The notes under the pieces: model-generated
The model's database searches: none
Seen by the model: the letters and a program-made list of their open reading frames with translations, nothing else
Told to the model about the DNA's origin: nothing
DNA from: Brevibacillus sedimenti
GTDB taxonomy: Bacteria > Bacillota > Bacilli > Brevibacillales > Brevibacillaceae
Direction of reading: 5' to 3'
Assembly: GCF_020923495.1 (NCBI RefSeq)
Contig: NZ_CP064048.1
Coordinates: forward strand, 335,501-399,500
Length of the DNA: 64,000 bases
Shown: piece after piece, positions 11,662-51,097 of the stretch
Numbering within the stretch: the first letter of the stretch is position 1
How the letters are laid out: each line of letters opens with the position of its first letter
Program-made: the position numbers and the translations under genes

Positions 11662-11677
11662 CAACCATATATAGTGT
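11662..11677 (+). promoter_or_regulatory. NrdR box 2
   Basis: CAACCATATATAGTGT matches about 13 of 16 consensus positions. It begins exactly 31 bp after box 1, the three-helical-turn spacing typical of paired NrdR boxes. The promoter probably lies within or between the boxes, with TATAGT at 11647 and 11670 as possible -10 elements. Confidence 0.7.
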
Positions 11678-11860
11678 GCTTTGTGGTGCGCTTGCCCAGG
11701 ATTCCGGCAAGCGCTTAAAAGGGAAGACCGGTGCAAGTCCGGCGCGGTCCCGCCACTGTAAATGGGGAGCGACTCTGTCAGATGCCACTGTCGATCGCAT
11801 CGACGGGAAGGTTCAGAGAAGCGATGATCCATGAGCCAGGAGACCTGCCACAAAGACAAC
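11675..11860 (+). promoter_or_regulatory. Cobalamin (B12) riboswitch aptamer
   Basis: The conserved core reads AAAAGGGAAGACCGGTGCAA, then GTCCGGCGCGGTCCCGCCAC and TGTAA. The closing B12 box GAGCCAGGAGACCTGCC is at 11833-11849. It sits in the 5' leader of nrdAB. With the terminator downstream it should stop nrdAB transcription when adenosylcobalamin is plentiful. Confidence 0.93.
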
Positions 11861-11976
11861 ACCGTTGGAACCACGAGGATGGGGAGGTGTGGAATCGGTC
11901 ATTCGCGGCGTGCCGCTCTTTCGGGCGCACGTTCCGCTTTGACACAGGCATGTTTGTTTCCACATGGGCAACATCA

Positions 11977-26135: not shown

Positions 26136-26151
26136 CCATGCGCACGCATGG
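26136..26151 (+). other. Perfect hairpin preceding the preQ1 aptamer
   Basis: CCATGCG-CA-CGCATGG forms a 7-bp stem with a 2-nt loop as written; steric limits would open at least the top pair. It abuts the first stem of the riboswitch and is not part of the known class I consensus. Confidence 0.4.
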
Positions 26152-26187
26152 GAGAGGTTCGCGAACTCCCTCTATAAAAAACTAAGG
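26149..26187 (+). promoter_or_regulatory. Class I preQ1 riboswitch
   Basis: GGAGAGGTTCGCGAACTCCC, then TCTATAAAAAACTAAGG, matches the class I consensus: a P1 stem GAGAGG/CCTCT, then the A-rich tail with the CTAAGG pseudoknot strand. It precedes queC, the classic location. Confidence 0.92.
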
Positions 26188-26224
26188 TGAAAAACAGTAC
26201 CCTTGGTATTGTTTTGTTTTTTTT
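26188..26224 (+). terminator. preQ1 riboswitch terminator
   Basis: AACAGTACC pairs with GGTATTGTT (one G-U) and is followed by TTGTTTTTTTT. It follows the aptamer directly, so ligand binding should terminate transcription before queC. Confidence 0.85.
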
Positions 26225-39993: not shown

Positions 39994-40767
39994 TCAGATG
40001 GAGTAGGCATGCGCTTGATTGTTGGCGAAAAACGGCTCCTCTACCCGCGCACCCAGGATTCTGTCCAGAATCACCCGCTCATAGTGGGCAAAACCGTTGT
40101 CCTTCACCCGGGGCCGGGCCAGGTTGATCTTGATGTCCATCGCCACCTTTCCCTCTTCCAGGAGAACCACACGGTCGGCCAGGGCGACTGCTTCGCTCAC
40201 GTCGTGCGTCACCAAAATGGCGGAGAATCCCTGTTCCAGCCACAGCTTTTCGATCAACCGCTGCATCTCGATCCGGGTCAGCGCATCCAGCGCGCCCAAC
40301 GGCTCATCCAACAGAAGCAGCCGGGGCTCTCCCGCCAAGGCGCGGGCCAGTGCGACGCGCTGCCGCTGCCCGCCGGACAGGACGCGGGGCCATTCGCCGG
40401 CGCGTTCGGACAGACCGACAAGACGCAGCGCTTCTTCCGCTGTCCGCTTCGCTCCCGCCCTGATCCCGAGCGCCACGTTGTCGATGACCTTTTTCCAGGG
40501 GAGCAGTCTGGAGTCCTGAAACATGATGCGCACCTCCGGGTACAGGCCGTAGAGGGGCTGGCGATCCACGTAAATCTGTCCTTCCGTCGGCTGGTCCAGG
40601 CCGGCAATCATCCGCAGCAACGTGCTTTTTCCGCATCCGCTCCGCCCGACGACGGCGACGAATTCGCCGGGCTGCATCGCAAGCCGCACCTGCCGCAGCA
40701 CCCGGGTGGCGCCAAAAGCCTTGCCCACATCCTGCACATCGAGTGACATGCCGTAATTCGCATTCAT
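39994..40767 (-). CDS. ssuB: Alkanesulfonate ABC transporter ATPase
   Basis: A 257-residue ABC ATPase with Walker A GRSGCGKSTL, signature LSGGQRQRVALARAL and Walker B LLLLDEPLGALD. The sequence and the operon place it in the SsuB group energising aliphatic sulfonate uptake. The ATG at 40767 follows GGGGGTGATGG; an internal ATG six codons later is the other option. Last gene of ssuADCB, 20 bp after ssuC. Confidence 0.92.
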   Translation of the reverse strand: MNANYGMSLDVQDVGKAFGATRVLRQVRLAMQPGEFVAVVGRSGCGKSTLLRMIAGLDQPTEGQIYVDRQPLYGLYPEVRIMFQDSRLLPWKKVIDNVALGIRAGAKRTAEEALRLVGLSERAGEWPRVLSGGQRQRVALARALAGEPRLLLLDEPLGALDALTRIEMQRLIEKLWLEQGFSAILVTHDVSEAVALADRVVLLEEGKVAMDIKINLARPRVKDNGFAHYERVILDRILGARVEEPFFANNQAHAYSI

Positions 40768-40787
40768 ACCATCACCCCCACGCCGGA

Positions 40788-41570
40788 TCACCGCTTGCTG
40801 TAGCTCGGATGCCACTGCAGCCACCTTCTTTCGATCGCCTTTGCGATGCTGTCGGACAGTTTGCCCAACAGCGCGTACAAGAGTATGCTCAGCACGACGA
40901 CATCCATCTGCATGAACTCACGGGCATTGGTGGCCATGTAGCCGATGCCGGAATCGGAGGCGATCGTTTCCGCCACGATCAGCGACATCCACATGACTCC
41001 GAGTGCGTAGCGGACCCCTACCAGGATGGAGGGAAGCGCCCCCGGCAGGATGACGTTCCAGAACAGAGCGAATCCGCTCAGCCCGTATACCCTGCCCATT
41101 TCCAGCAGACCGTGATCTACTGTGCGGATGCCGTGAAAGGTGTTGACGTAAATGGGAAACAAGACGCCCAGCGCGACGAGAACCAGTTTTGCTTCCTCTC
41201 CGATCCCGAACCACAGGATCACCAGCGGGATCAAGGCCAGATGAGGAATCGTGCGCACCATCTGCACCGATGTGTCCAGCAGCTTTTCGGCAGGGGGAAA
41301 CACCCCGTTGAGCAACCCCAGGAAAAAGCCGAGGCCGCCGCCGATCAAAAAGCCGATCAGAGCCCGCTTGGCACTGGCTGCTATATAGTCAAACAGTTCC
41401 CCGTCCTGAACCAATTGCACCGCCGCCTCCACTACATGGACGGGCGTCGGCAGAACGCGCGTAGAGATGATCCCCCAGTCGCCGAGCACCTGCCACACGA
41501 GAATGACCAGAAGCGGAATGCTCCAGGGAATTACGTGCGCCAGGCCGCGTGTTTTCAACGTCAAACGCAT
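40788..41570 (-). CDS. ssuC: Alkanesulfonate ABC transporter permease
   Basis: A 260-residue inner membrane permease with about six transmembrane helices (WSIPLLVILVWQVLG, ALIGFLIGGGLGFFLGLL, LALIPLVILWFGIG). The EAA-like loop LLEMGRVYGLSGFALFWNVILPGALPSILVGVRYALG contacts SsuB. The ATG at 41570 follows GGGAGGAG. It lies between ssuD and ssuB. Confidence 0.93.
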   Translation of the reverse strand: MRLTLKTRGLAHVIPWSIPLLVILVWQVLGDWGIISTRVLPTPVHVVEAAVQLVQDGELFDYIAASAKRALIGFLIGGGLGFFLGLLNGVFPPAEKLLDTSVQMVRTIPHLALIPLVILWFGIGEEAKLVLVALGVLFPIYVNTFHGIRTVDHGLLEMGRVYGLSGFALFWNVILPGALPSILVGVRYALGVMWMSLIVAETIASDSGIGYMATNAREFMQMDVVVLSILLYALLGKLSDSIAKAIERRWLQWHPSYSKR

Positions 41571-41600: not shown

Positions 41601-42746
41601 TCAGCCATGGGCGACCACGCTCCGGGACGAGACTTTTTTCTCGGGAAAACGGTCATTGCCGATGATTTCACCAGCCGGAGCTTCCGGCGTTCGATTCGCC
41701 AGCGGCAGATGCGGAAACAGCAGTTCCGCTACTCGATACGCCTCTTCCAGGTGGGGATAGCCGGAAAAGATAAACGTCTCGATGCCAAGCTCGGCGTACT
41801 CCAACATGCGGGCGGCGACAGTCTGCGGGTCGCCCACGAGCGCGGTCCCCGCCCCGCCTCTGACCAGACCGATGCCGGCCCACAGGTTGGGGCTGATCTC
41901 CAGATCGCTGCGGTTGCCGTTGTGCAGCCGAATCATCCGCTTTTGACCTTCGGAGTCGTAGTTGGCGAGCGCTTGCTGCGCCGTGCGGATCGTTTCTTCA
42001 TCCAGGTGCTTGATCAGCTGTTCGGCGGCGTCCCACGCTTCCCGTTCCGTTTCCCGGACGATCACGTGCAGGCGGATGCCAAATCGGACGGTACGCCCGT
42101 TTGCTTCCGCCAGCGCGCGCACCTTCCTGATTTTTTCCGCCACCTGCTGCGGCGGCTCTCCCCATGTGAGATACACATCCACGTGTTCGGCCGCCACTTT
42201 AAGCGCCGCCTCGGACGAACCGCCAAAGTACAGCGGCGGATACGGTTTTTGGAACGGGGGAAACAGCAGACGCCCATTTTTCACATGCAGATACTCACCT
42301 TGAAAATTGACCTGTTCCCCTCTTAACAACGAGCGCCAAATGGTGAGAAATTCATCCGTCAATGCGTAACGGTCATCATGGGACAGATGGAGACCGTCCC
42401 CGGCCAACTCGACCGGGTCGCCGCCCGTCACCACGTTGATTAACAGACGGCCGTCGGAAAAGCGGTCGAGGGTGGCCGCCATGCGGGCTGCCGCCGCAGG
42501 AGAAACAATCCCGGGCCGAACTGCCACGAGAAACTTCATCTGCCGGGTGGCCGCGATCAGGGAAGATGCCACCACCCACGCGTCCTCGCATGACCGTCCC
42601 GTAGGCAGCAGGGCACCGCTGAACCCCAGCTCATCCGCCGCCTGGGCGATCTGACGCAAATAGTTGAACGTGACGGGACGCCCCCCTACGGATGTTCCCA
42701 GATAACGGCCATCCCCGTGAGTCGGTATAAACCAAAAGACTTCCAT
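41601..42746 (-). CDS. ssuD: FMNH2-dependent alkanesulfonate monooxygenase
   Basis: A 381-residue bacterial luciferase-fold flavoenzyme releasing sulfite from C2-C10 alkanesulfonates. It begins [17 protein letters not shown] and has the conserved [10 protein letters not shown] (with the active-site Cys), FLVAVRPG and [15 protein letters not shown]. It needs reduced FMN from an SsuE-type reductase, which is not in the window. The ATG at 42746 follows AAAGGGAG, 18 bp after ssuA. Confidence 0.95.
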
Positions 42747-42764: not shown

Positions 42765-43784
42765 TTACCGTGCTGGTCGATAAATTGCTTCCTGGACGGA
42801 AATGTTTTGCGGAATCAGCTTCAGGGCGAAATACGTATCAGCTATTTCCTGCTGCCCTTTTACAATGACGTCGTCAATCGGCTGAAGCCCGTACTCTCTG
42901 CGTTTCGCCGCCTTCTCCAGCGCGGCTGCGTCGATTTTCAACAGCGGCGCCAGCAGCTGGGCCACTTCCTTGGGATGTTCGTTGGCCCACGCGCTCACGT
43001 GCTCCACTTCTTCGAGCAATACGTGGATTATGTCGCCATGCTCCTCGGCAAAGCGTTTGGAGGCGAGGTAGAAATCGCGGTCCTCCGCCAGGCCTACGCC
43101 GTTGGCCAGCACCCGGACCTTGCCGGTGATCTCGATGTCGGCGAAATAGGGGTCCCACACTACCCACGCGTCGATTTTTCCCTGCTCAAACGCAATGCGG
43201 GCATCGGCCGGGGACAAAAACGACAGGGTCACGTCGCTGTACTGGAGGTTGGCCTTTTCCAGCGCCTTCACCAGCAGGTAATGAGCGCTGGACCCCTTGG
43301 CCAGGCCGATGTTCTTCCCTTTCAAGTCGGCCAGCGTGCGTATGCTGGACTCATGTTTGACGAGGATCGCAGAGCCTTCGGACTTTGCCTTGCCCGCAGC
43401 CACGTACACCAGGGGAGAGCCTGCCGCCTGGGCAAACACGGGAGGAGAATCGCCTGTTCGCCCGACGTCAAGATTGCCCGAGCTCAGCGCTTCCAGCAGC
43501 GGAGGACCGGCCGGAAACACGTGCCAGGTCACGTCGTATCCCCGTTCCTTCAATTGTTTTTCCAGGGTGCCGCGCTCTTTAACGATGTTCAGCGGATCCC
43601 CTTTCTGGTAGCCAATGCGCAGGACCTTCGCCGTTTCTTCCGATTGGGCAGCGGCCTGCCCCGCGCTTTCGCGGCTGTCCCCGGAGCATCCGATCAGAAA
43701 GGCGGCCGCCAGAAACAGTCCTGCGAGAAAAGCGGCAGCAGCACGGGTCCGCGGGTTTTTCCGTGAATCTGTGAGTGTCAGCAC
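42765..43784 (-). CDS. ssuA: Aliphatic sulfonate-binding lipoprotein
   Basis: A 339-residue binding protein with a long signal peptide, lipobox FLIGC and Cys at residue 33. The mature domain starts VLRIGYQKGDPLNIVKERG, with GPPLLEALSSGNLDVGRTGDSPPVFAQAAG and DLKGKNIGLAKGSSAHYLL typical of the SsuA/NrtA fold. The GTG at 43784 follows GAGGAGG. It is the first gene of ssuADCB, about 135 nt downstream of a sigma-A promoter, with a terminator-like hairpin in the leader. Confidence 0.92.
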   Translation of the reverse strand: MLTLTDSRKNPRTRAAAAFLAGLFLAAAFLIGCSGDSRESAGQAAAQSEETAKVLRIGYQKGDPLNIVKERGTLEKQLKERGYDVTWHVFPAGPPLLEALSSGNLDVGRTGDSPPVFAQAAGSPLVYVAAGKAKSEGSAILVKHESSIRTLADLKGKNIGLAKGSSAHYLLVKALEKANLQYSDVTLSFLSPADARIAFEQGKIDAWVVWDPYFADIEITGKVRVLANGVGLAEDRDFYLASKRFAEEHGDIIHVLLEEVEHVSAWANEHPKEVAQLLAPLLKIDAAALEKAAKRREYGLQPIDDVIVKGQQEIADTYFALKLIPQNISVQEAIYRPAR

Positions 43785-43818
43785 GAGTTTCCTCCTCTCA
43801 TCAAATGTGGAGTATCAA

Positions 43819-43865
43819 CAAAAAGGCTCCCACATGCTTGCATCAGAGCAAACAGGCAGGAGCCT
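43819..43865 (-). terminator. Leader terminator (attenuator) upstream of ssuA
   Basis: On the minus strand AGGCTCC pairs with GGGAGCCT across a two-tier loop with an inner GTTTGC/GCAAGC stem, followed by TTTTT. It lies inside the 5' leader, 35 nt before ssuA, so it can only act on ssu transcription. Confidence 0.75.
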
Positions 43866-43920
43866 TCAGTTGACTGATCGGCTGCGGATGTTTTATTTTT
43901 TGAACCCGGTGTCGTTGCTT
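43866..43920 (-). ncRNA. Unassigned leader RNA of the ssu operon
   Basis: About 55 nt between the predicted transcription start and the attenuator. I see no S-box (SAM-I), T-box or other recognised motif. It contains a small CAGT-CA-ACTG inverted repeat. With the terminator it makes up a leader of about 135 nt of unknown trigger. Confidence 0.45.
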
Positions 43921-43927
43921 ACGATAC

Positions 43928-43956
43928 AGTCTATTCCAACTATTCATACCTGTCAA
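43928..43956 (-). promoter_or_regulatory. Sigma-A promoter of the ssu operon
   Basis: Minus-strand TTGACA, a 17-bp spacer and TAGACT. Confidence 0.75.
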
Positions 43957-44098
43957 GTATGTTTTTGGCACGAGCAAAGGGAGTGAGGGATATGGCTGTT
44001 GCCGTAACAGCTCATTCCCTGCACTCCGGCATGGCGCTGGCCCCCAGGGATGGGACCGGCCCCGCAGCACGGGGACGAAACTGCCATGTGGCCCATCA

Positions 44099-45139
44099 TC
44101 ATTTTCGCATATTGCGCTTTTCAGCCAGCTCGACGTAATACCCGGTTTCCTTCGCCACATCCTGCGTAAACTGGGCCGAGTCGGCATAGTCCGGCTCCAC
44201 CTGTATGCCGTGCAGCTTTTTCACAAATGCGGGGTCGTTCACCATTTTCGCCACGGCTTCTTCCCACTTGTTGATCACGTAGTCGGGTGTCCCCTTGGGA
44301 AAAGAGACCCCGGTCCACCAGAACACGGTCAGCCCCTTTACTCCCTGCTCTTCGGCGGTGGGAACGTCGGGGAGAAACGGGCTGCGCTCGCTGCCGGACA
44401 CCGCGAGAATCCTCACTTTCTTTGCCTGGAGCATGGGATTGATCTCGCCGACAGTATGGACAGCGAGGATCGCGTGTCCGCCCGCCACTTTGGGCAGTGA
44501 ATCGGACGCGCCCTTCGTCACAATCATCCGGGTCTTGGTAAAATCAGCCCCGATCGCGTCCATCCATTCCGCCACACCGAATGCGGAAAATCCGGCAGGT
44601 CCGACGGAGGTCCAGGTCAACTGTTCCGGGTGCTGTTTCACCCATTGGGAGAATTCGGCGAAGTCCTTCCACGGCGCATCTGCCTTGACCGCGAACGCCA
44701 GCGTCCCTTTTCCGATCCGGGCGGCGTACACCTGGTCCTCATTGGTGATCAGGGGCTGTTTCATCCCCGCCGACAGCATGGACGTGTTGGAAACGTTGAC
44801 GGCCAGCGCCGTGTAGCCGTCGTTTTTCGCCTGTTTCAGAGCGTACTGCGCCCCGACCGTGCCGCCGCCCCCCGGTTTGTTGACGACGACGACCGGCTGC
44901 CCCCACTCTTTGCTCAAATAATCTGCCGCAGCCCGGGCAACCAGATCTACCCCGCCCCCGGCGGAATAGGGAACCACGTACTCAATCTGTCTGTCGGGAT
45001 AGACGGGAGCCGCCTGACCGGCAATGGCCTGCGTCTCAGAACCGACATCGGGTTGGGCAACGTCCGCCCCGCAGGCCGTCACCGCCACGGCTGCCAGGCA
45101 GGAGACGATCCCGCCGATCCATTTCCCATATGCTTTCAA
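44099..45139 (-). CDS. tctC: Tripartite tricarboxylate transporter substrate-binding lipoprotein
   Basis: A 346-residue TctC/Bug-type binding protein. The lipobox is AVTAC with Cys at residue 23. The mature part has YPDRQIEYVVPYSAGGGVDLVARAAA and VNKPGGGGTVGAQYALKQAKNDGYT, the family hallmarks, and FLPDVPTAEEQG. It starts with TTG at 45139 after AGGAGGAG, 39 bp behind tctA. The ligand is a carboxylate such as citrate or an aromatic acid, not resolved by sequence. Confidence 0.93.
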   Translation of the reverse strand: MKAYGKWIGGIVSCLAAVAVTACGADVAQPDVGSETQAIAGQAAPVYPDRQIEYVVPYSAGGGVDLVARAAADYLSKEWGQPVVVVNKPGGGGTVGAQYALKQAKNDGYTALAVNVSNTSMLSAGMKQPLITNEDQVYAARIGKGTLAFAVKADAPWKDFAEFSQWVKQHPEQLTWTSVGPAGFSAFGVAEWMDAIGADFTKTRMIVTKGASDSLPKVAGGHAILAVHTVGEINPMLQAKKVRILAVSGSERSPFLPDVPTAEEQGVKGLTVFWWTGVSFPKGTPDYVINKWEEAVAKMVNDPAFVKKLHGIQVEPDYADSAQFTQDVAKETGYYVELAEKRNMRK

Positions 45140-49859: not shown

Positions 49860-50957
49860 TTACTGTTCTACCACGGTCTTTTCAGCGTGACCGGCGGGAA
49901 AGGTCCGCTCGATCAGCTTCTTCACCACGTTCTCGATCTCTGCTTTTCGCTTGTCCGCCTGCTCCTGTGTCAGCTTGCCTTCCTTCACTGCTGCTGCCAG
50001 GCGTTCTTCCTCCTGCTTGGTCAAGAGGCTGACCAGCTCATCCGTGGACACGCCCTGCTCCTTGGCCACGTCGGCCAGTGATTTGCCGTCTTTCAGCTCG
50101 CTTTGCAGTTGTTCCTTATCCAGCTTCAGCAGATCCAGCAGCTCTTCATTGTCGCCGAATCCCGGGAACAGTGCGCGGAACTTCACGAAGCCTTTTCCCG
50201 GATGAGTGTTTTCCACGAAGTGCTTCACCCGCTCGGCAATGTTCTCCTTCAGTTTATCCGCCTGCTCTTGCGTCAGCTTGCCTTCCTTCACCGCTGCTGC
50301 CAGACGTTCTTCCTCCTGCTTGGTCAAGAGGCTGACCAGCTCATCCGTGGACACGCCCTGCTCCTTGGACACGTCGGCCAGCGATTTGCCGTCTTTCAGC
50401 TTGCTTTGCAGTTGTTCCTTATCCAGCTTCAGCAGATCCAGCAGCTCTTCATTGTCACCGAATCCCGGGAACAGTGCGCGGAACTTCACGAAGCCTTTTC
50501 CCGGATGAGTGTTTTCCACGAAGTGCTGCACCCGCTCGGCAATGCTCTCCTTCAGTTTATCCGCCTGCTCTTGCGTCAGCTTGCCTTCCTTCACCGCTGC
50601 TGCCAGACGTTCTTCCTCCTGCTTGGTCAAGAGGCTGACCAGCTCATCCGTGGACACGCCCTGCTCCTTGGACACGTCGGCCAGCGATTTGCCGTCTTTC
50701 AGCTTGCTTTGCAGTTGTTCCTTATCCAGCTTCAGCAGATCCAGCAGCTCATCGTTATCCCAGAGGGACGGCCCTTTTACGAATACTTTACCTTTTCCGA
50801 GTTTCTCCGCGCTGAACCAGCCCTTATGTTCGAACTTGACGCCTTTATCCACAGGCTGCTGATTGTCGGCAGCGGCGTAGACGCTTCCGATGCTGCCAAT
50901 GCTCAACGCCGTAGCCATTGCTCCCAACAGCATTCCGATTTTTGCTTTGCTGAACAT
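49860..50957 (-). CDS. Secreted protein with three tandem DUF2680-like repeats
   Basis: About 365 residues from the ATG at 50957 (an AAAGGA lies 11 nt upstream; two other ATGs lie just before). A signal peptide (SKAKIGMLLGAMATALSIGS, cleavage near VYAAA) is followed by three 101-residue units. Each holds ELLDLLKLDKEQLQSKLKDG, SLADVSKEQGVSTDELVSLL and KEGKLTQEQADKLKE, joined by the linker HPGKGFVKFRALFPGFG. The LADVSKEQGVS...EGKLTQEQAD pattern resembles YckD/DUF2680 proteins (inference). The third unit ends divergently. No enzyme motif is seen. It is probably an exported helical wall-associated protein of unknown role. Confidence 0.82.
   Translation of the reverse strand: MFSKAKIGMLLGAMATALSIGSIGSVYAAADNQQPVDKGVKFEHKGWFSAEKLGKGKVFVKGPSLWDNDELLDLLKLDKEQLQSKLKDGKSLADVSKEQGVSTDELVSLLTKQEEERLAAAVKEGKLTQEQADKLKESIAERVQHFVENTHPGKGFVKFRALFPGFGDNEELLDLLKLDKEQLQSKLKDGKSLADVSKEQGVSTDELVSLLTKQEEERLAAAVKEGKLTQEQADKLKENIAERVKHFVENTHPGKGFVKFRALFPGFGDNEELLDLLKLDKEQLQSELKDGKSLADVAKEQGVSTDELVSLLTKQEEERLAAAVKEGKLTQEQADKRKAEIENVVKKLIERTFPAGHAEKTVVEQ
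49925..50765 (-). repeat. Three tandem 303-bp repeats inside the secreted protein gene
   Basis: The period is exactly 303 bp: for example GTTGTTCCTTATCCAGC begins at 50108, 50411 and 50714. The first two complete units are almost identical at DNA level, including synonymous positions, which points to recent duplication. The copy nearest the gene's 3' end has drifted more. Confidence 0.9.
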
Positions 50958-51097
50958 GATCTCCATCATCCTTTCCAATATTTTAAACTTGTACCCAGGT
51001 ACAGCTTTAGTGTAGGGTTTCAATCTTTGATTCGCCTTAGAGAACTGTGGAAAACTCTAGGAATGATCGTGGAAGAGTTGTGTGTCGGGTGAACGCA

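Follow-up and report, generated by a model that had tools for sequence, protein, structure and literature searches.

The ssu operon and its leader

The alkanesulfonate operon lies on the minus strand of the window, by which we mean the whole 64-kb stretch of DNA analysed. It consists of ssuA for the sulfonate-binding protein (42765–43784, GTG start; TIGR01728, 243.2 bits against a cut-off of 163.5), ssuD for the alkanesulfonate monooxygenase (41601–42746; TIGR03565, 629.8 bits, cut-off 518.2), ssuC for the permease (40788–41570; NF008470, 354.4 bits, cut-off 347) and ssuB for the ATP-binding protein (39994–40824), the start of which is uncertain and the best match of which, NF008420 with 337 bits, falls under its cut-off of 395. 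A ribosome binding site (AGGAGG, 43791–43796) precedes ssuA, and a gene for a TctC-type receptor of a tripartite tricarboxylate transporter (44099–45139, same strand) is found 5′ of the ssu promoter.

The initial annotation had described a strong promoter followed by a leader with a terminator hairpin and five T only 35 nt ahead of ssuA, and all of these parts are present on the minus strand. The promoter (43928–43956) is of the sigma-A type, with TTGACA (43956–43951) and TAGACT (43933–43928) separated by 17 nt and 10 of 12 positions matching the consensus; a GGAATA box overlaps its −10 element and spacer. The leader (43921–43784), whose 5′ end is assumed from the promoter position, has a folding energy of −46.2 kcal/mol (z −3.47), and one of 200 shuffles folded equally well. 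Within it, the predicted intrinsic terminator (43820–43865) combines ten outer pairs (43865–43856 with 43833–43824) with an inner stem, reaches −27.6 kcal/mol on its own and ends in a run of five T (43824–43820); the GTG start of ssuA, at 43784, is 35 nt further on. This hairpin is absent from the output of a simple terminator scan, probably because the scan permits loops of 3–8 only. Given that the 5′ end is an assumed one, transcription might truly start downstream of the hairpin, as the annotation had also considered. A 1-kb promoter scan gave two promoter-like sites on both strands together (0.3 expected), none of them on the minus strand between the hairpin and ssuA, and many copies of the motif described below lie behind promoters; we regard a downstream start as extremely improbable.

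The earlier statement that no S-box, T-box or other known class fits the leader held when positions 43650–44110 were scanned with Rfam, a check that the annotation had itself proposed: there was no match at gathering thresholds, and at E values up to 5 only matches to a miRNA, an HCV stem-loop and M23 appeared, all far under gathering. The S-box/SAM riboswitch and the T-box (Rfam RF00230) were both rejected as candidates, since neither covariance model matched this region at the gathering score, nor with E relaxed to 5. Rfam 15 likewise gave no match on the motif itself in any of 21 places scanned, the leader and 20 other loci of the motif. Two of these 20 loci hold a separate S-box elsewhere, with SAM riboswitches at L266:1501–2011 and L193:4961–5086 (both minus strand). 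The order in L266 is SAM riboswitch, yezD, motif, with the S-box directly 5′ of yezD, and two RNA controls may operate there in series.

A conserved RNA family in the Bacillota

A DNA search with the leader among 99 relatives found 15 places in 12 genomes, which have in common AGCCGATCAG-NNNN-CTGAAGGCTCC, in varying form, and behind it a terminator arm that matches. Covariance model R1 was built from 10 of the 15 rows of this first alignment (A1), because the terminator arm was misaligned in several of its rows. R1 matched 32 of the 39 genomes belonging to the same family as the host of the window, 30 of 41 in the genus of G189, and 107 of 398 drawn from the class—Bacilli, judging by the named matches—94 of them with E below 1e-4. 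Among 398 genomes drawn from the phylum there were 26 with a match, 18 of which fall outside the class; several are weak, and in several weak ones (e.g. L109–L111) the hairpin proved absent on inspection.

An exact pattern scan of named genomes returned 86 stretches, from taxa that include Brevibacillus, Aneurinibacillus, Peribacillus, Domibacillus, Tumebacillus, Bacillus velezensis and B. nakamurai. Examination of 80 of these stretches gave 81 matches, 50 in Bacillota and 31 elsewhere, and a terminator arm that matches, with TTT behind it, follows the pattern in 48 of the 50 compared with none of the 31. The 31 non-Bacillota matches and the two from Bacillota that have no terminator (L174 and L202) were left out of later work, and merging identical motif rows before counting reduced 108 rows to 96 distinct ones. 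Model R2, which describes the whole conserved element of antiterminator and terminator, places it at 43820–43885 (minus strand) with 59.6 bits. This is the sole R2 match at E ≤ 0.1 in the 64-kb window, which argues that the ssu element is more than a chance occurrence.

As judged by sequence comparison, the ssu leader is one copy of a conserved RNA family that extends across the Bacillota and mostly precedes sulfur-scavenging genes. The RNA family is new, and its mechanistic kind, an antiterminator set against a terminator, is already known. The antiterminator, the breadth of the family and the link to YezD discussed below had not been recognised in the initial annotation and were added by the comparison. 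The genome of the window itself has a second, divergent copy (L243:1880–1932, plus strand; G000:C1:1471379–1471431) with the base stem AACC/GGUU, located before genes for DUF2325 and yezD.

Two covarying and mutually exclusive hairpins

The core consensus of the 96 distinct rows is GCY-GA-YNRG-NNNN-CYNR-A-GGC with a variable apical loop, and the window copy, AGCC-GA-UCAG-UCAA-CUGA-A-GGCU, has the same GA/A internal loop, flanked by GCY/GGC on one side and a 4-bp hairpin on the other. On the minus strand, the 5′ arm of the base stem, AGCC (43880–43883), is followed by the GA side of the internal loop (43878–43879), the apical hairpin UCAG-UCAA-CUGA (43866–43877), the single A on the opposite side of the loop (43865), which is also the first base of the terminator stem, and GGCU (43861–43864), which doubles as 3′ arm of the predicted antiterminator and 5′ arm of the terminator and covaries in both pairings. 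The terminator (43865–43820) overlaps the antiterminator in this way and has the T run behind it. The G of the internal loop and the A facing it occur in all 96 distinct rows, the A next to the G in 95.

Aligning leaders from related genomes for covariation, as the initial annotation had suggested, revealed it in the antiterminator and in the terminator. In the 96 distinct rows, 93.9% of antiterminator cells are paired compared with 86.2% after shuffling, and two-sided changes occur in all eight pairs compared with 4.2 after shuffling; slid pairing registers were tried, and none came near the covariation of the true register. The apical hairpin is paired in 99.7% of cells and has two-sided changes in all four of its pairs. 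The base stem offers only three reliable pairs, with GCC/GGC covariation and a single cell with letters unpaired in GCY/GGC; its distinct two-sided changes are few and partly inherited, and the outermost pair, A–U in the window, is not conserved and fails in 45 of 95 rows. In the terminator, all six modelled pairs have two-sided changes. We also took 32 copies from outside the R2 training set, some of them from relatives of genomes used for R2, with a model that lacked the base stem: GUC/GAC, UCC/GGA and GCU/AGC forms of the base stem recur among them, and four of five covariation measures exceeded all 500 shuffles. Further pair types in the antiterminator were not above shuffles, with 119 of 500 shuffles as high for the 96 rows and 103 of 500 for the 32 copies.

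Folding of the window copy gave −8.5 kcal/mol for the antiterminator hairpin compared with −27.6 kcal/mol for the terminator. When the transcript was folded at increasing lengths, the minimum-energy structure included the hairpin at lengths of 60 to 90 nt; from 96 nt onwards it had switched to the terminator. The two structures are mutually exclusive because GGC(U) is common to both, and we conclude from these alignments and predicted folds that the leader is very probably an attenuator of competing hairpins. A constitutive partial terminator without regulation is conceivable for this strain; such a terminator would need no upstream GCY-GA-YNRG part, yet that part is highly conserved and covaries, and ssu of B. 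subtilis has been reported, as far as the title of that report goes, to be controlled at termination. We consider an unregulated hairpin very unlikely.

Genes and promoters around the motif

The genes downstream of the motif were surveyed in 88 proteins, namely 87 distinct automatic picks from the 96 copies and the ssuA product of the window; eight copies gave no pick, two copies had one pick in common, and some picks may be wrong frames. Among these first downstream genes, Pfam recognised 13 SBP_bac_11 (sulfate-binding), 10 ABC ATPases, 8 NMT1/SsuA-type proteins, 7 luciferase-like monooxygenases, 6 FMN reductases, 5 permeases, 3 DUF2292, 3 FbpB and 1 ATP sulfurylase. The sulfate-binding family TIGR00971 was matched by 13 of the 88, and methionine transporters are also among the gene types behind the motif.

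One genome outside the class (G529) has five copies of the motif within 27 kb. One copy leads sat, accompanied by an APS-reductase-like and a sulfate-binding gene; one leads an ssu-like transporter with cysK, and another nifH with cysK. A fourth is followed by yezD and, at a greater distance, by genes resembling nifB and nifE (both scoring below their cut-offs), and the fifth by an unnamed ORF. Locus L246 (50–8026, plus strand), from a genome outside the class, shows the motif before nifH with cysK and before yezD with the nifB-like and nifE-like genes; these nif-type genes perhaps represent a nitrogenase-like route to sulfur.

In the genome G785, which we take to be B. subtilis strain 168, R1 gave two places. 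One copy leads an ssuB-like ORF and the other, at L244:2737–2787 (plus strand), a small basic ORF in the vicinity of a catalase-like gene; these names were given by eye. In L217, from a Bacillus and hence of the same genus, the small basic ORF behind the motif matches Fur-regulated basic protein B, hinting at an iron–sulfur link. Several loci from the genus of the window (L049, L050, L053, L056 and L058) have the motif ahead of a small MEYxCxxCxx protein of ~93 residues. One of these proteins was scanned and gave nothing over the Pfam cut-off; a LysR gene comes next in several of the loci, as judged by eye.

Two promoter settings can be told apart among the 95 copies whose upstream sequence is long enough: in 28 a yezD gene precedes the motif within 200 nt, and in the other 67 it does not. 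A sigma-A promoter with at least 10 of 12 matches lies within 130 nt of 35 of these 67 copies (2.65 in base shuffles), and a GGAATW box accompanies 22 (5.85 shuffled); these promoters may be the target of a sulfur repressor, for instance CymR. Only one of the 28 copies after yezD has such a promoter (0.5 shuffled), and one has a GGAATW box (2.6 shuffled).

Co-occurrence with YezD

Genomes that carry the motif very often encode YezD (DUF2292, PF10055), a protein of ~60 residues from a family of unknown function. DUF2292 is present in 157 of the 398 class genomes—98 of the 107 with the motif compared with 59 of the 291 without (OR 43, p 3e-40)—and, counted by genus, in 47 of 52 with the motif compared with 24 of 93 without. 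Among 14 control genomes it was found in B. subtilis only. All 94 genomes with a motif at E below 1e-4 carry it. The nine motif genomes that lack it have E values of 1.7e-4 to 9.9e-4, and the four of them that were retested with R2 all lost the motif; R1 matches near 24–26 bits are partly false.

With R2, the motif was detected in 27 of 40 YezD-positive genomes missed by R1 compared with 2 of 40 YezD-negative ones (p 4e-9), and 13 of these 40 YezD-positive genomes gave no motif with R2 either. The 40 positives were chosen by hand from the 59 without an R1 match. To test whether sulfonate genes alone explain the tie to YezD, SsuA was searched for in 80 of 241 YezD-negative genomes and was over its cut-off in 20; these 20 carriers and 20 others of the 80 made up the negatives. 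Both R2 matches among the negatives fall in SsuA carriers. The one in L289 (G316) was rejected, as the hairpin is absent on inspection despite the R2 score. The other, L290:1501–1560 (minus strand; G106), is a good copy with a GUCC/GGAC base stem in a genome where DUF2292 was not detected; it precedes a gene for an XRE-type regulator, by eye.

The association also appears in gene order. Of the 96 distinct copies, 28 have yezD no more than 100 nt away, in 26 cases on the same strand and upstream, and 39 have it within 1.5 kb, many of the stretches spanning just 1.5 kb per side; for 54 copies yezD is absent from the stretch examined. In the second set of loci, examined with R2, 20 of 30 hold yezD inside a 3-kb stretch. 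The genome of the window carries yezD at G000:C1:1471954–1472061 (Pfam 58.6 bits), starting 484 nt after the end of the second, divergent motif copy, which leads the DUF2325 gene. With yezD 5′ of the motif in a setting nearly free of promoters (1 of 28), synthesis of YezD would continue even while transcription is halted at the attenuator.

The hairpin could instead be bound by some other protein, e.g. DUF2325 or a regulator of the Rrf2/CymR or LysR type, with YezD as an accessory. Genes for DUF2325 adjoin motif copies in the genus of the window, including the second copy in its own genome, and Rrf2-like genes (named by eye) lie ahead of some yezD–motif–transporter operons. DUF2325 was profiled as YezD was, as was SsuA in part, and co-occurs with the motif only weakly (43 of 107 motif genomes compared with 67 of 291 without; outside the family of the window 20 of 82 compared with 56 of 280, p 0.44), which rules it out as a universal partner. 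Rrf2 and LysR proteins bind DNA, which argues against a role at an RNA hairpin, and we judge a binder other than YezD decidedly unlikely.

Homology and fold gave no indication of what YezD itself might do: there is no sequence match in the PDB below E 0.5, and the predicted model, which comprises one helix and two strands and is of moderate confidence (mean pLDDT 75.5), has no Foldseek match at E ≤ 0.001 and no recognisable RNA-binding fold. In B. subtilis, yezD is listed with ssuABCD and tcyJKLMN in one set of genes whose expression ratios differ more than 10-fold between two conditions (gene set in PMC3862929). It is described as upregulated in deep starvation, where its deletion mutant is viable and unaffected in survival (deep-starvation data of PMC6385201).

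Proposed mechanism

The comparison of sequences establishes the element, its two competing and covarying folds, the sulfur genes downstream and the genomic tie to YezD. These exclusive helices, downstream genes and co-occurring small protein support what the initial annotation had put forward, namely an attenuator that may answer to a sulfur signal through RNA or an antiterminator protein. In our model, the antiterminator hairpin GCY-GA-YNRG-NNNN-CYNR-A-GGC would form first as RNA polymerase copies the leader. If nothing held it, the downstream arm would capture GGC(U) into the much stronger terminator and transcription would stop before ssuA. When sulfur is scarce, a factor acting in trans, for which YezD is the best candidate, would bind the hairpin at the invariant GA/A internal loop, and with the hairpin held in place the polymerase could read into the ssu operon. 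We infer that binding stabilises the antiterminator, that YezD is what binds and that low sulfur status is the signal. We consider this reading as a whole likely: when sulfur runs short, a factor provided in trans, YezD being the foremost candidate, would open the attenuator. That YezD itself binds the hairpin is a proposition we favour slightly. YezD may also be a mere fellow member of the sulfur regulon, in which case co-occurrence would be expected too.

Such membership is part of a further alternative, in which a small sulfur metabolite works the competing hairpins directly, as a very small riboswitch, and yezD is just one of the regulated genes. The invariance of the GA/A loop, the several routes to cysteine represented by genes behind the motif and the presence of DUF2292 as the first of these genes in 3 of 88 cases would suit a riboswitch. 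At ~23 nt and with an apical loop that varies, however, the hairpin would make a small aptamer compared with known classes; the tie to YezD moreover persists where yezD was not seen near the motif (54 of 96 copies). A metabolite acting on its own seems unlikely to us.

If YezD does bind, it might be the first representative of a new class of very small antiterminators that bind RNA. It would hold a ~23-nt hairpin at the GA/A loop and govern, at the level of elongation, a sulfur-starvation regulon that spans the Bacillota and ranges from the uptake of sulfonate and sulfate to a nitrogenase-like cluster; in many genomes its gene would lie just before its own attenuator. We see this wider proposal as evenly balanced.

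Comparison with known systems

The closest precedent is B. subtilis ssuBACD, an operon of the same type with leader control, which was reported in 2001 to be regulated at both transcription initiation and termination. A motif copy precedes the ssuB-like ORF of G785, and ssuB leaders in the B. subtilis group carry the motif, which fits the published control of ssu at termination. The present analysis supplies the breadth of the family, the covariation of the antiterminator and the tie to YezD. The literature searched, mostly open-access, yielded neither a factor nor a shared RNA element for ssu termination control, and term searches within published work on novel or comparative RNA motifs turned up no similar element. 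What the analysis contributes is an RNA element in many Bacillota, the genes behind it and one named, testable candidate protein, YezD, from a family without known function that is present in the model organism B. subtilis, where the deletion is viable.

The B. subtilis cysH operon has leader control and is said to be sulfur-regulated as well; neither of the two R1 places in G785 lies at a cysH-like ORF, and a divergent copy there is possible. S-box (SAM) and cysteine T-box leaders resemble the motif in their terminator-based control of Bacillota sulfur genes, whereas the motif is shorter, differs in its conserved core and has no Rfam match in the 21 places scanned. Antitermination of the BglG/LicT type also relies on a small, factor-held hairpin (RAT) that overlaps the 5′ arm of a terminator, and comparison and folding point to the same overlap in the motif. 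The conserved sequence of RAT hairpins is probably a different one. The 88 first downstream genes hold 49 Pfam families, and the 25 commonest of these include no PRD or CAT family.

Elsewhere, the window contains a cobalamin riboswitch (11667–11866, plus strand, 127.7 bits), a PreQ1 riboswitch (26148–26191, plus strand, 49.5 bits) and, at 49860–51023 on the minus strand, a gene for a protein with about three near-identical repeats of ~90 residues (LLDLLKLDKEQLQSKLKDGKSLADVSKEQGV...).
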